Shown: positions 43,637-50,396 of the stretch, piece after piece | Layout: the number at the start of each line of letters is the position of its first letter | Numbering within the stretch: the first letter of the stretch is position 1 | NCBI GenBank assembly: GCA_002238825.1 | Contig: MPNC01000004.1 | Coordinates: forward strand, 193,241 to 257,240 | Source: SAR202 cluster bacterium bin87 | Lineage (GTDB): Bacteria > Chloroflexota > Dehalococcoidia > Lucifugimonadales > UBA3495 | Reading direction: 5' to 3' | DNA: 64,000 nucleotides | Notes under the pieces: generated by a model | What the model was told of the DNA's origin: nothing | The model's input: only the letters and a program-made list of their open reading frames with translations | The model's database searches: none | Made by a program: the position numbers and the translations under genes

Positions 43637-44092
43637 TCAATTGTCGTCAGAAGCAACCCAGTCGTCAAACGAAATGCCACCCGTATATTCGCCGGGCAGT
43701 TCAGCCCATAGAATTTCGACCAGGGGCACAATATCCTCCAACGCCAATTCCGTCTGCAGCCGATCAAGAAAAACTTCGTAAAAGTTGCCGTGCAGAACAT
43801 CTGCCGAGGTCAAACCACGAATGATGGTGTCCTGATGATCGCTGTATTCGTGGGCCAGTTCGCGGATGACCTCACGCAGCCGATCATGGTCGGAATGCTG
43901 CCAACCCCGGTGCGTGGCCACCGCCTTCGTCAACTGGGCCACCGCTCCCCACGCCTTTTCTCCAGCCTGGCACAGATCTCCCTCAGCCAGGTATCCGGGC
44001 CACTTTGTCCAGTATTCGCCCGCCTTGGGCAGATGCTTGCGGATAGCAGCATCGCGGCGTTCCGGAGATTGTCGTCGTTGTCGAGGTGGCAT
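43637..44092 (-). CDS. Small helical protein, HEPN/PaREP1-like (single)
   Basis: A 151-residue protein. LCQAGEKAWGAVAQLTKAVA near residue 38 and SADVLHGNFYEVFLDRLQTE near 95 are the best examples in the window of the A..KAW.A and LHGNFYE motifs of PaREP1-like proteins. It stands alone, three bases upstream of mnmA on the same strand, with its own TGCTATACT promoter. Function unknown. Confidence 0.7.
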   Translation of the reverse strand: MPPRQRRQSPERRDAAIRKHLPKAGEYWTKWPGYLAEGDLCQAGEKAWGAVAQLTKAVATHRGWQHSDHDRLREVIRELAHEYSDHQDTIIRGLTSADVLHGNFYEVFLDRLQTELALEDIVPLVEILWAELPGEYTGGISFDDWVASDDN

Positions 44093-44201: not shown

Positions 44202-45155
44202 ATGCCCGTCACCTTCGGATGCTCCCTCCCCAGCCGGGGAGCCATGGCCTCTCCCGACAACCTGCGCAGCCTGGCCCAGCGCGCCGAGGACCTGTCCTTC
44301 GACCACGTCTGGGTCAGCGACCACATCATCATCCCCCACGAGGTATCGTCCTTCTATCCCTACGCCGCGGACGGCGTGGCGCCCTTCCAGCGGGACAACA
44401 CCTACTTCGAGCCGCTGGCCGCCCTGAACTTCCTCGCCGGTTGCACCACCCGCGTCAGGCTGGGCACCCATGTGTTGATCCTCCCCTACCGCAACCCTGT
44501 GCTCACCGCCAAGATCCTGGCCACCCTGGACGTGCTCAGCGGCGGCCGCCTGATCCTGGGCGCCGGTGTCGGCTGGATGGAGGAGGAGTTCCAGGCAATG
44601 GGGCTCGACACCTACGCCCAGCGCGGCCAGGTCACCGACGAGTACATCCAGATCTTCAAGGAACTCTGGACCTCCGACAACCCCGAGTTCCACGGCGAGC
44701 ACTACGACGTCAGCGGCGCCGGTTTCCTGCCCAAGCCCGTGCAGAAACCCCACCCGCCCATCTGGATCGGCGGCCACACCAACCCGGCCATCCGCCGCGC
44801 CGCCACCCTGGGCGACGGCTGGATGCCCATCGGCCTGCGCCCGCCGGCCATCCTGGAGCCCGAGGAACTGGCCGAGAAGATCGCCCGCCTCCGCCGCGTC
44901 AGCGCAAGAGCCGGCCGCGCCGAGGACGCCGTGGACCTGGTCTTCAGCACCGACTGCGTGTTCCACGACGCGCCGCAGTCCGACCGCCGCCTGGTATCCG
45001 GCATCCCGGAGCAGATCGCCGCCGACCTGCGCCAGTACCAGGACCTGGGCGTGCAACACTTCATCTTCAGCTTCCCCGCCGAATCCGCCGCCCAGCAGCA
45101 GGAAGCCATGGAGCGCTTCTCCCGCGAGGTCATGCCGCTGATCCCCAACGATTAG
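44202..45155 (+). CDS. LLM class F420-dependent oxidoreductase
   Basis: A 317-residue luciferase-like monooxygenase. FDHVWVSDHIIIPHE near residue 30, VRLGTHVLILPYRNPVLTAK near 90 and GRLILGAGVGWMEEEFQAMG near 117 are the TIM-barrel signatures of this class; PPIWIGGHTNPAIRRAATLG follows. Members use F420 or flavin to oxidise small organics. CGGAGG precedes the ATG at 44202. Confidence 0.88.
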   Translation: MPVTFGCSLPSRGAMASPDNLRSLAQRAEDLSFDHVWVSDHIIIPHEVSSFYPYAADGVAPFQRDNTYFEPLAALNFLAGCTTRVRLGTHVLILPYRNPVLTAKILATLDVLSGGRLILGAGVGWMEEEFQAMGLDTYAQRGQVTDEYIQIFKELWTSDNPEFHGEHYDVSGAGFLPKPVQKPHPPIWIGGHTNPAIRRAATLGDGWMPIGLRPPAILEPEELAEKIARLRRVSARAGRAEDAVDLVFSTDCVFHDAPQSDRRLVSGIPEQIAADLRQYQDLGVQHFIFSFPAESAAQQQEAMERFSREVMPLIPND

Positions 45156-45363
45156 CAAACGACATTAACGGCGTGTATTGCCTTTCGTGAGGTTGCTTCG
45201 GCGTCGCCCAGAACCGGAGCCTCCGGTGTACCTGCCGTTGCCCCTATTGCCCAACTGTAACGCTTTTCGTAAAATGACACTCGGATAACATCCAGGTTCG
45301 GCAATCCGGATCCCTGCAGATCGGTCCGTATAAAGGGTCGCAATCGGTCGATGGGAGGACACC

Positions 45364-47085
45364 ATGGGCAAATCATTTGGTCTCCTGTTCGCATCAATCC
45401 TGATGGCGCTGGCCCTGGCGTGGGGAGGTGTCGCTTCCGCCGTGAAGGCGGCGGGAGTCGACTCGCCCGCCAATGCGGCGGTTATTTCGCGCGTTGCAGT
45501 TGCCGTAGACGAAGAGGAGGGGGATGAGGACGACAGTACTGGTGACGTTCCCCAGACTGATAATGATGGTGTGGACACTCCTTACACCGACGATGATGGG
45601 GTGGACACCACCGACAACGACGGCATCAACACCGCCACCACGGATGGCGACGGCGTTCAAACCCCATACACCGACGATGACGGGGTCGACACCACCGATA
45701 ACGACGGCATCAACACCGCCACCACGGATGGCGACGGCGTTCAGACCCCATACACCGACGATGACGGGGCGAATACCACTGACAACGACGGTATCAACAC
45801 CACTGCCGGCACGGGTGTTCCGTACACCGACGGTGACGGAGTTGACACCACCGACAATGACGGCATCAATACCCCCTATACCGATGATGACGGGGTGGAC
45901 ACTACCGACAACGACGGGATCAATACTCCCTACACGGACAACGACGGGACGGATACCTCGGATAACGACGGGATCAATACTCCCGCGACCGACAACGACG
46001 GGATCAGTACCCACGAAACCGACAATGACGGCATCAATACCCCCTACACCGATGACGACGGAATAGACACTACCGACAATGACGGCATCAACACCGCCAC
46101 CACAGACGGCGACGGCGTTCAAACCCCATACACCGACGATGACGGGGTGAATACCACTGACAACGACGGTATCAACACCACTGCCGGCACGGGTGTTCCG
46201 TACACCGACGATGACGGAATTGACACCACCGACAATGACGGCATCAATACCCCCTACACCGATGACGACGGTATAGACACTACCGACAATGACGGCATCA
46301 ACACCGCCACCACAGACGGCGACGGGGTTCAAACCCCCTATACCGATAACGACGGGGTGGACACCACCGATAACGACGGCATCAACACCGCCACTACGGA
46401 TGGCGACGGGGTTCAGACTCCTTACACCGATAACGACCAGGTAGATACCACCGATAACGATGGGATCAACACGGCCTCTACGGATGGCGACGGGATCCAG
46501 ACCCCCTACACTGACGATGACGGGGTGGACACCACCGACAACGATGGGATTAACACCACTGACGGCACTGGCTCTCCGAATACCGATGGTGACGGGGTGG
46601 ACACCACCGACAATGACGGGGTCAATACTCCTTACACCGACGACGATGGGATGGATACCTCGGATAACGACGGGGTCAACACTCCCTATACCGATGGTGA
46701 CGGGGTGGACACCACCGATAACGACGGGATAGATACTCCCTATACCGACAACGATGGCGTGGACACCACCGACCACGACGGCGTCGCGACCCCATACACG
46801 GATAACGATGGCGTGGACACCTCCGATAACGACGGCGTCGATACTACGGACAACGACGGTACCGACTCCGACGGCATCGACACTCCAACTCCCACCGACA
46901 ACGACGGCACCGACTCCGACGGCATCGACACCCCCACTCCCACCGACGGCATCGACACCCCCTCGCCGGACACTCCGACCCCAGACACCCCAACGCCGGA
47001 CACCCCAACGCCGGACACCCCGACCCCGGACACTCCGGACACTCCGGACACTCCGGACAGCGGCGCCAGCAGCGCCGGCAGTTAG
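45364..47085 (+). CDS. Secreted hyper-acidic DxDG-repeat protein
   Basis: A 573-residue protein. A signal peptide (MGKSFGLLFASILMALALAW, then GGVASA) is followed by an acidic linker and then, from about residue 60 to 525, some 48 short units of Asp-x-Asp-Gly-hydrophobic-Asp/Asn/Gln-Thr. Units alternate 8 and 10 residues, the commonest being TDNDGINT and YTDDDGVDT. A TPDTPTPD stalk ends the protein in SGASSAGS. There is no LPxTG, lipobox or C-terminal membrane helix. The DxDG loops recall calcium-binding repeats such as thrombospondin type 3 or dockerin, so calcium binding outside the cell is inferred. GGGAGG precedes the ATG. The DNA itself is a tandem repeat. Confidence 0.85.
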   Translation: MGKSFGLLFASILMALALAWGGVASAVKAAGVDSPANAAVISRVAVAVDEEEGDEDDSTGDVPQTDNDGVDTPYTDDDGVDTTDNDGINTATTDGDGVQTPYTDDDGVDTTDNDGINTATTDGDGVQTPYTDDDGANTTDNDGINTTAGTGVPYTDGDGVDTTDNDGINTPYTDDDGVDTTDNDGINTPYTDNDGTDTSDNDGINTPATDNDGISTHETDNDGINTPYTDDDGIDTTDNDGINTATTDGDGVQTPYTDDDGVNTTDNDGINTTAGTGVPYTDDDGIDTTDNDGINTPYTDDDGIDTTDNDGINTATTDGDGVQTPYTDNDGVDTTDNDGINTATTDGDGVQTPYTDNDQVDTTDNDGINTASTDGDGIQTPYTDDDGVDTTDNDGINTTDGTGSPNTDGDGVDTTDNDGVNTPYTDDDGMDTSDNDGVNTPYTDGDGVDTTDNDGIDTPYTDNDGVDTTDHDGVATPYTDNDGVDTSDNDGVDTTDNDGTDSDGIDTPTPTDNDGTDSDGIDTPTPTDGIDTPSPDTPTPDTPTPDTPTPDTPTPDTPDTPDTPDSGASSAGS

Positions 47086-47094
47086 TCGACCGTG

Positions 47095-48312
47095 ATGGTC
47101 ACGCAGCCCGTCGCATCACTCTACCCTGAGGTCGATTTTCCTGAAGACCCGGGTTTGGGCGAGTTGCCAAAACTCTTCGATCCCAACTGGATCTGGGAGA
47201 CGTTTTGTCAGCGCTTTGAAGGGCCGGACACCGATCCTGATCGTTTCCGTATCCGCCAGTTCAGCCATACCCTGGGCCGCAGCGCTATCATCAGCTATGA
47301 GGTGGAATGGGACCCGGAAGATTATCTGCCTTCACAGCACTTCACCGTAAGCATCCATCGGGACAAACCCATCGAGGTGTTCCAATTCCCTGACGACCCT
47401 CTGCTGCCGGGGTTGAAGGAAGCGTCCGACCCGGAGACCGCCCTGCGCCTGCTGAACCGGCACGTTCTGCCCGTTGGGGCGCGACGCGCCAGGGTCGAAG
47501 TTATCAGATACCGGTACGGCAGTCGGGCCGTTTTGCGCCACAGCGTGAGCAGGGCCAGATTCTATGCGCGTGTGATGCGCTCCGACGCCACGGCTCCCCT
47601 GCTTGCCGCCAGAGAGCCTATTGGACGATCGAGTTTCGTCCTGCCAAGGCTTGCCGGATATTGGTCCGAGGGCAGCGTGATGTGGATGCCGGAAATGCCG
47701 GGCAAGAACCTGCGCCGGCACATCCGCCGGGGCAATATGCCAGACCCGGCTCCGTTGTTGGACGGTCTCGAAACCCTATGGGCGCAGTCGGCCACCCCGG
47801 ACGTCGGACAGCCCTTCGACCTTGCCACAGCATATGGTCGGGCCAAACGCGCCATCCGACACAAGGTCCACTGCGGCGAAACTGCTTTTCAAAGCCTTGA
47901 CGAGGCCACCCGGACGCTGGATCCGTTCGTGAAGGCGTGGCAGCCCATTGCTCTCGCCCATAACGACTTCTACGACGACCAGTTGCTGGTCTTGCCCGAC
48001 GGGCGCATGGCCGTTGTGGACTTTGAAGAAACCGGGCCGGGCGACCCGCTGCTGGATGTGGGCAACTTCTTGGCGCACCTGCGATGGCGATCGTGCCTGG
48101 GTCGACAGCGCGACAACGATGCCAGCGCCGCCTACCACGACCTCTTGCGCCACGCTGCGCTGCGGCAATTTGGATGGAACCCGGGAGAACTCGCTCAGCG
48201 CGAAGCTGTATGCCTGTTCCGGATCTGCACCAATATAATCCGCCATCCTCAATCGGACTGGCGCGACAAGTTGGAGGCGGGCCTTGCGTTGGTGAACGAG
48301 ACGTTGGGATAG
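47095..48312 (+). CDS. Aminoglycoside phosphotransferase-fold kinase-like protein
   Basis: A 405-residue protein. The C-terminal half has ALAHNDFYDDQLLVLPDGRM (HND catalytic loop, near residue 285) and VVDFEETGPGDPLLDVGNFL (DFE, near 310), as in the APH/choline-kinase group. The N-terminal half holds a kinase-like lobe (ITYRYG...LRHSV). The substrate is unknown. It begins nine bases after the stop of the DxDG protein (ATG at 47095, GTG at 47092 also possible) without its own ribosome site, so it is probably translated from the same message. A hairpin follows. Confidence 0.75.
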   Translation: MVTQPVASLYPEVDFPEDPGLGELPKLFDPNWIWETFCQRFEGPDTDPDRFRIRQFSHTLGRSAIISYEVEWDPEDYLPSQHFTVSIHRDKPIEVFQFPDDPLLPGLKEASDPETALRLLNRHVLPVGARRARVEVIRYRYGSRAVLRHSVSRARFYARVMRSDATAPLLAAREPIGRSSFVLPRLAGYWSEGSVMWMPEMPGKNLRRHIRRGNMPDPAPLLDGLETLWAQSATPDVGQPFDLATAYGRAKRAIRHKVHCGETAFQSLDEATRTLDPFVKAWQPIALAHNDFYDDQLLVLPDGRMAVVDFEETGPGDPLLDVGNFLAHLRWRSCLGRQRDNDASAAYHDLLRHAALRQFGWNPGELAQREAVCLFRICTNIIRHPQSDWRDKLEAGLALVNETLG

Positions 48313-48349
48313 CCCACCCGTTCGTTCATAGAATGCTGACGCGTTTTCA

Positions 48350-48386
48350 GGCGGAACGGCTCATCTCTACGGGCCGTCCCGCCTTT
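48350..48386 (+). terminator. Hairpin after the kinase-like gene
   Basis: GGCGGAACGGC, a 12-base loop, then GCCGTCCCGCC and TTTATA: an 11-base stem with one mismatch, 37 bases after the stop. Confidence 0.6.
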
Positions 48387-48453
48387 ATAGTTCCGTTGAC
48401 GCCGTCAACTTCCAGCGACACCCCTCTTTCCTGCCGGCCAACACCCGCTATCG

Positions 48454-48492
48454 TATAATGCACCCCAACCAAATAATGCACCCCAACCAAAC
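48454..48492 (+). promoter_or_regulatory. -10 box inside an 18-base tandem duplication before DUF1015
   Basis: TATAAT at 48454-48459 opens the first of two copies of AATGCACCCCAACCAAA. The gene starts downstream at 48512. The duplication places a second AATAAT 18 bases on; whether it is a second promoter is unknown. Confidence 0.5.
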
Positions 48493-49811: not shown

Positions 49812-50396
49812 ATGACGACGACCGCCCTGCCCGTACAAACCGCCACGCCAACCCGCCGCCGGTTCACCGTGGAGGAATACTGTGCCATGGCCGAAGCCGG
49901 CATCCTGGCCGCGGATGAACGCCTGGAACTGCTGAGTGGAGAAATATTTCTAATGGCGCCTATCGGAGCGGCTCACGCGGACATCACAGACCTCTTCGAT
50001 GACTTTTTCAAATCTTCGTTGCGGGGTCGCGCTCGCGTGCGGGTGCAGGGGCCGCTGAGAATCGATGACACCACATTACTGTATCCGGACCTCGCGGTGC
50101 TCCGCCTGCGGTCAGACTACCGTCACCGTCTGCCCGGACCGGAGGATGTACTTCTGGTCATCGAGGTATCCGACAGCTCGATACGGCGCGACCGTGAGGC
50201 CAAGTTGTCTCGCTACGCCGCGGCCGGCATCCCCGAGGTGTGGATCGCCAACGTGCCCGACTGCCACGTCGAAGCCTTCCACGACCCAGTGGACGGCGTT
50301 TACCAGAGCAGCCGCATAGTCCCGGCCGACGGCCGGATCAGCCCCCGGGCCTTCCCCGACGTGGTGCTCACTGTAGGCGACTTCCTGCTCGGCTGA
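49812..50396 (+). CDS. Uma2 family endonuclease-like protein
   Basis: A 194-residue protein of the Uma2 family. RRFTVEEYCAMAEAGILAAD, LELLSGEIFLMAPIGAAHA, LLYPDLAVLRLRS near residue 92 and LLVIEVSDSSIRRDREAKL near 115 complete the PD...ExK core. These are widespread in cyanobacteria and Chloroflexota; the biological target is not known. It lacks the coiled-coil tail of the other two Uma2 proteins. Sixteen bases after DUF1015. Confidence 0.85.
   Translation: MTTTALPVQTATPTRRRFTVEEYCAMAEAGILAADERLELLSGEIFLMAPIGAAHADITDLFDDFFKSSLRGRARVRVQGPLRIDDTTLLYPDLAVLRLRSDYRHRLPGPEDVLLVIEVSDSSIRRDREAKLSRYAAAGIPEVWIANVPDCHVEAFHDPVDGVYQSSRIVPADGRISPRAFPDVVLTVGDFLLG

Follow-up and report, generated by a model that had tools for sequence, protein, structure and literature searches.

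What is a secreted protein made of some four dozen short Asp-x-Asp-Gly units, and does it work alone? The question is raised by one gene of the 64,000-nucleotide stretch of DNA analysed here (the window), which the sequence-only reading had described as an open reading frame with a signal peptide, about 48 DxDG units, a TPDTP stalk and no surface anchor. This description is borne out by our analysis, and the features of the gene are as follows:

45247..45275, plus strand: weak sigma-70-like promoter match 5' of the repeat gene; with 1 found versus 1.2 expected it does not exceed chance expectation
45364..47085, plus strand: secreted acidic repeat protein, 573 aa, with a congener orthologue that has 49 DxDG motifs
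45364..45441, plus strand: signal peptide, residues 1-26, a hydrophobic run with a ...VASA end (from the sequence; model helix 4-21)
45487..45537, plus strand: junction Ser42-Arg43, then the acidic tract DEEEGDEDDS (S42 and R43 invariant in A2)
45556..46956, plus strand: repeat region [TS]-D-x-D-G-x-x-T, 48 DxDG, units mostly of 8 or 10 residues
46957..47055, plus strand: Thr-Pro-Asp stalk
47056..47085, plus strand: C-terminal DSGASSAGS and stop, compared with the tails of relatives

The repeat is represented by the peptide TDNDGINTPYTDDDGVDT, and the 48 DxDG motifs lie within residues 66-520; a spacing of 8 or 10, proposed earlier as the rule, does predominate, but spacings of 16, 18, 5 and 11 occur too. 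The protein contains 146 Asp and 121 Thr against one Arg and two Lys, the repeat is free of Cys, the mature chain carries a charge of about -149, and neither an LPXTG motif nor a C-terminal membrane segment was found in it. Signal peptides were called by eye. The gene is the sole one of its kind in its own genome, and an antisense ORF of 460 aa that traverses the repeat (45394-46776, minus strand) mirrors the repeated codons and is no evidence for a gene.

Thrombospondin type 3 and dockerin repeats have the DxDG motif in common with the window repeat, and the earlier reading had set the unit apart from both, rightly according to our analysis. A Pfam search of the window protein matched no calcium-repeat family, and pattern counts in it were zero for the thrombospondin type 3 pattern DxDxDGxxDxxD, for D-x-[DNS]-x-DG, for the dockerin or EF-hand loop (D-x-[DN]-x-D-G) and for the RTX nonapeptide GGxGxDxU. 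The repeat units have Thr or Tyr at position 1 of the EF loop, not the Asp of the known families, and with neither a Pfam nor a pattern match the known calcium repeats were rejected as the identity of this protein. The NCBIfam model ser_rich_anae_1 (32 versus a cut-off of 650 bits) was dismissed as a low-complexity match, no related solved sequence was found for the protein, and a literature search returned no relevant paper naming the repeat.

Modelling of the repeat, suggested as a check by the earlier reading, led to disorder: an AlphaFold2 run with five low-complexity sequences gave a mean pLDDT of 39, the signal helix (residues 4-21) being the sole ordered part. The protein is thus predicted to be disordered, which the model fits without proving it, and in this respect too it departs from thrombospondin type 3 and dockerin repeats. 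A beta-roll or beta-helix of 18 residues per coil (8+10) was rejected on the same model and on the units of 10, 12 and 16 residues in relatives. Calcium or mineral binding by so acidic a chain is possible, and the Asp content, the charge and the DxDG loops may even suggest a secreted polymer whose DxDG turns chelate metal, with any kinase in a secondary role. We regard metal binding as an improbable main function, in view of Thr or Tyr at loop position 1, the zero pattern counts and those proteins, described below, that lack DxDG and conserve acidic Thr/Ser instead. An anti-freeze role, also mentioned earlier, found no support.

The repeat units themselves are old, with purifying selection acting on the protein sequence. 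The 49 eight-codon units comprise 43 distinct DNA sequences with a mean nucleotide identity of 73%, and the earlier description of them as near-identical DNA does not hold. Among these units pS is 0.68 and pN 0.157 (pN/pS 0.23), and against congener G003 pN/pS is 0.19 over 536 aligned codons, the congener orthologue having 49 units and an identity of about 80% over those codons; both ratios indicate that the amino-acid pattern has been kept by selection over long times. The numbers of DxDG are 48 and 49 in the two sister genomes and range from none to 31 in remoter relatives, so the number of units does change, as had been supposed, but over long times, and slippage of near-identical units was rejected for want of near-identity in the DNA. 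Of the 14 genomes of the genus, 8 contain a relative of the repeat protein, as do several other lineages; unit lengths shift among these relatives between 8, 10, 12 and 16 residues. Assemblies are broken at the repeat arrays in two genomes (G008 and G010); an assembly artefact in the window is very unlikely because the congener has an orthologue with 49 units.

The sequence-only reading overlooked that a kinase gene follows and forms a tightly conserved pair with this one, and it also overlooked the shifts of unit length in relatives and the exchange of the cassette. The features of the downstream gene are:

47092..48312, plus strand: APH-fold (PF01636) kinase, 406 aa, 6 nt 3' of the repeat gene
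47569..47571, plus strand: invariant Arg159 where distant relatives have the beta-3 Lys (LFIKVV versus FYARVM), inferred from the alignment
47959..47982, plus strand: catalytic-loop motif H289-N-D291-F-Y-D-D-Q296, invariant in 18/18 except for Y293
48016..48030, plus strand: metal-binding (DFG-equivalent) motif V308-D309-F-E-E, with V308, D309, E311 and E312 invariant in 18/18

The enzyme belongs to PF01636 (40.3 bits versus a gathering score of 23.2, with all 18 members matching), and it shares fold and catalytic motifs with the aminoglycoside, choline and methylthioribose kinases of that family. It differs from them in its N-terminal 98 or so residues, which lie beyond most matches, in the Arg at the beta-3 Lys position, and in that its own group almost always has a secreted acidic protein next door. 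Its model is confident (pLDDT 89), with the APH kinase fold from about residue 98 onward and Arg159 within strand E154-161. In the alignment of the 18 members the position of the catalytic-loop Asn is occupied by Gln, which, together with the Lys-to-Arg change, suggests that the enzyme may be atypical in its activity or in how it binds nucleotides. It might even be supposed that such a kinase-fold protein performs no phosphotransfer and serves as a chaperone, a secretion partner or another modifying enzyme for the acidic tail; the invariant change at beta-3 would be in accord with this, and there is a precedent in kinase-fold cyclases that have no kinase activity and lack kinase residues (PMC12291118). 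Unlike these cyclases, the enzymes retain the catalytic Asp (H289-N290-D291) and the metal-binding Asp (D309) in 18 of 18 cases, and we consider a role of this kind quite unlikely.

Which substrate such an enzyme acts upon is left undecided by structural ranks, since in the model-based comparison small-molecule kinases stand level with the lanthipeptide kinase LxmK (Z about 21 for methylthioribose kinase versus 19.4 for LxmK). LxmK (NF038156) is the best named NCBIfam match of the window enzyme, a weak one that falls short of the curated score (29.3 bits versus 315), and all 18 members match this model. The CotS spore coat kinase model TIGR02906 was matched by one member of 18 only (E 0.18), so this family test failed. 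The weak similarity to LxmK, a class V lanthipeptide kinase, brings to mind a RiPP-like route of phosphorylation followed by elimination to dehydro-amino acids, which we find very hard to credit with no Cys in the repeat and no cyclase neighbour. The HopA1-type lyase PF17914 was absent from 14 of 14 genomes of the genus while the control was positive; the class V lanthipeptide test thus failed, and lanthipeptide-type dehydration was rejected.

The gene context shows that the gene of the secreted acidic repeat protein and the kinase gene are coupled. At 39 of 39 kinase orthologue loci, defined as those with at least 520 bits at which the upstream DNA could be read and the neighbour classified, the gene directly upstream on the same strand specifies a secreted protein whose tail is acidic and rich in Thr/Ser; L059 (41% identity, 522 bits), which has no clear partner ORF and lies outside this set, would make it 39/40 if taken as a failure, and four loci truncated where their contigs end (L039, L052, L060, L061) stand outside the count. 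The gap between partner and kinase is usually within 72 nt (280 nt in L078), and a kinase relative of 38% identity (G001; L051) has no partner adjoining. The orthologues come from further families of both the class and the phylum and from three Acidimicrobiia genomes. Compared from the side of the repeat protein, the flanks of its relatives contain a homologue of 47092-48312 next door wherever they are readable, even in an Acidimicrobiia genome (52% identity). Within the family 13 genomes have both genes and 33 neither (Fisher p 2e-8, uncorrected for phylogeny), and the only repeat-only match, in G020, was set aside as an unrelated low-complexity protein. The survey comprised 1,803 genome searches in two phyla, some repeating the same genomes. 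A sponge origin of the relatives, suspected from MAG names, found no confirmation in the literature.

Across 23 wider loci no third conserved gene was found, and only the kinase and its partner recur. This bears on the reading in which the enzyme is a small-molecule kinase of the sugar, choline or ethanolamine type and the primed group is attached to the partner, giving a glycoprotein or phospho-substituents. The closest solved folds (5-methylthioribose, choline and aminoglycoside kinases) and the Thr-Pro-rich stalk of the partner speak for it; such stalks are usual targets of O-glycosylation. Against it, neither a glycosyltransferase nor another third gene accompanies the pair over the 23 loci, and the exchange of a two-gene unit between strains, to which we now turn, fits direct action better than small-molecule priming. 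We judge this reading unlikely, if the least so of the alternatives. The exchanged segment is:

45155..48429, no strand assigned: exchanged two-gene segment; an inverted divergent cassette stands between the same neighbours in congener G011

The repeat gene and the kinase gene move together. Between the window genome (G000) and G011 the neighbouring proteins are 99% (LLM), 94% (mnmA), 97% (AGXT), 95% (Uma2) and 86% (DUF1015) identical, while the enzymes share 52% identity and the two genes lie in opposite orientation between these common neighbours; G005 has the arrangement of G011. DNA similarity extends to 45154, where the upstream neighbour has its stop codon, and returns at 48429. Such joint replacement of the two genes speaks for a specific functional link between them. 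In the enzyme tree, many inner branches of which are unresolved, the two cassette types of the genus are separated with strong support and Acidimicrobiia enzymes are found among Chloroflexota ones. No common direct or inverted repeat of at least 9 nt was found at the borders, and mobile-element ends were rejected; so was phage or plasmid carriage, there being no viral relative and plasmid matches of just 24-28% identity, and none of the defence-system models matched the locus. Around the cassette two copies of an 18-bp unit, ATAATGCACCCCAACCAA, lie at 48455-48491, where the DUF1015 gene starts and the exchanged segment has its border. A Uma2-family (PF05685) gene lies beside the cassette at 49812-50396, with two tandem copies in L033, and a gene of the PaREP1/PaREP8 family ('archaeal' in Pfam) at 43637-44092 (minus strand), of which L033 has two copies side by side.

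The partners have in common a tail rather than a whole protein. Their N-terminal parts vary: a signal peptide alone, an SLH domain, a weak fn3-like part or uncharacterised domains of two types (GTVVSLQGTPHLWF and ALDCAG...VTNADGVPMWDFVR). The last two are seen in L068 and L079, from other Chloroflexota families, where such globular domains bear the acidic tail; Pfam gave no match above threshold for them. The common layout is an Arg junction with an acidic run (in most partners R[STR] ahead of a D/E run, often R-R-S or S-R-S/T), then T/D repeats of the types TDNDG..., TDNDGTDSDGIDTPTP, TDHDGFDTTAN or TATATATATDDGTS, and then a tail without basic residues. Among the 39 partners the C-terminal residue is Ser or Asp in 36, none has K or R in the last 12 residues, and 27 have S-(acidic)-S, DSD or SDD there; the relatives end, for instance, in DSDDSGASS, DSDDSGNDS or DSDDSD. 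Several partners of the same kinase, those of the TATATATATDDGTS type, lack DxDG, from which it follows that the conserved property is acidic Thr/Ser and not a calcium-like motif. The SLH surface domain belongs to a cross-phylum relative of the repeat protein, and the earlier idea of a secreted surface or coat polymer fits such an acidic chain.

A small control set of distant Acidimicrobiia enzymes (24-29% identical), classified by eye, is useful because it was not chosen to test the pairing idea. In L090, L093 and L096 the directly upstream genes encode secreted proteins with Ser-Glu/Asp repeats (SESVESES, SPDSVES), and in L089, L098 and L100 a divergent secreted acidic protein adjoins the enzyme. 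Most of these six neighbours bear Ser/Thr-Glu/Asp repeats, and the six loci possibly represent another branch of such systems. No secreted acidic neighbour was found for others of this group (e.g. L086, L087, L097), nor for the more distant APH enzymes L123-L127.

On balance we believe that a dedicated kinase phosphorylates Thr/Ser of its partner before export, and that the polymer then forms a polyanionic surface or matrix layer. The repeat gene would be the substrate half of a two-gene cassette, and its product a polymer that is flexible, rich in Thr/Ser and strongly acidic. Since the enzyme lacks a signal peptide, its action must precede export: the APH-fold enzyme would phosphorylate, in the cytoplasm, Thr/Ser of the repeats, of the acidic Ser tail or of both, recognising its substrate by the Arg-Ser/acidic junction, the repeat or the tail. 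Sec export would follow the modification, and outside the cell the modified polymer may constitute the polyanionic layer. More tentatively, and with doubts that we retain, it could be suggested that APH-fold kinases of this sort polyphosphorylate the acidic tail of whatever secreted protein they are paired with, that a phospho-polyanion surface layer results, and that the pair, exchanged across strains and phyla, is an undescribed and widespread system.

Known systems lend sense to such a scheme. In the Bacillus spore coat the CotH kinase gene clusters with the CotB and CotG genes, and CotH polyphosphorylates the Ser-rich repeat region of their products (PMC7821199); a kinase gene beside a surface protein gene makes this the closest working analogue of the window pair. 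CotH is a different kinase family, absent from the Pfam matches of the window enzyme, and the repeats of CotB and CotG are rich in Ser, Lys and Arg, whereas those of the window protein are acidic; spores are not implied here. The APH-like CaoK phosphorylates Ser/Thr of a precursor peptide iteratively in vitro (PMC9486802), and CaoK and LxmK resemble the window enzyme in being APH-fold proteins that act on Ser/Thr of a polypeptide from the same cluster. The window pair differs in having no LxmY-type lyase and, for a substrate, a large Sec-exported protein instead of a short leader-core peptide.

To our knowledge bacteria offer very few cases of a kinase dedicated to a secreted repeat protein, CotH in spores being an example. 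If our proposal is true, uncultured Chloroflexota and Acidimicrobiia would have a second solution, unrelated to CotH. Two products without a telling name, a 'phosphotransferase family protein' and a low-complexity protein, become one testable unit, in which the kinase is a reliable handle to partner proteins that low-complexity filters hide in ordinary searches. Replacement of both genes at once, at an unchanged position in the genome, suggests that variation of the cell surface is favoured by selection, as in contact with phages, hosts or competitors.
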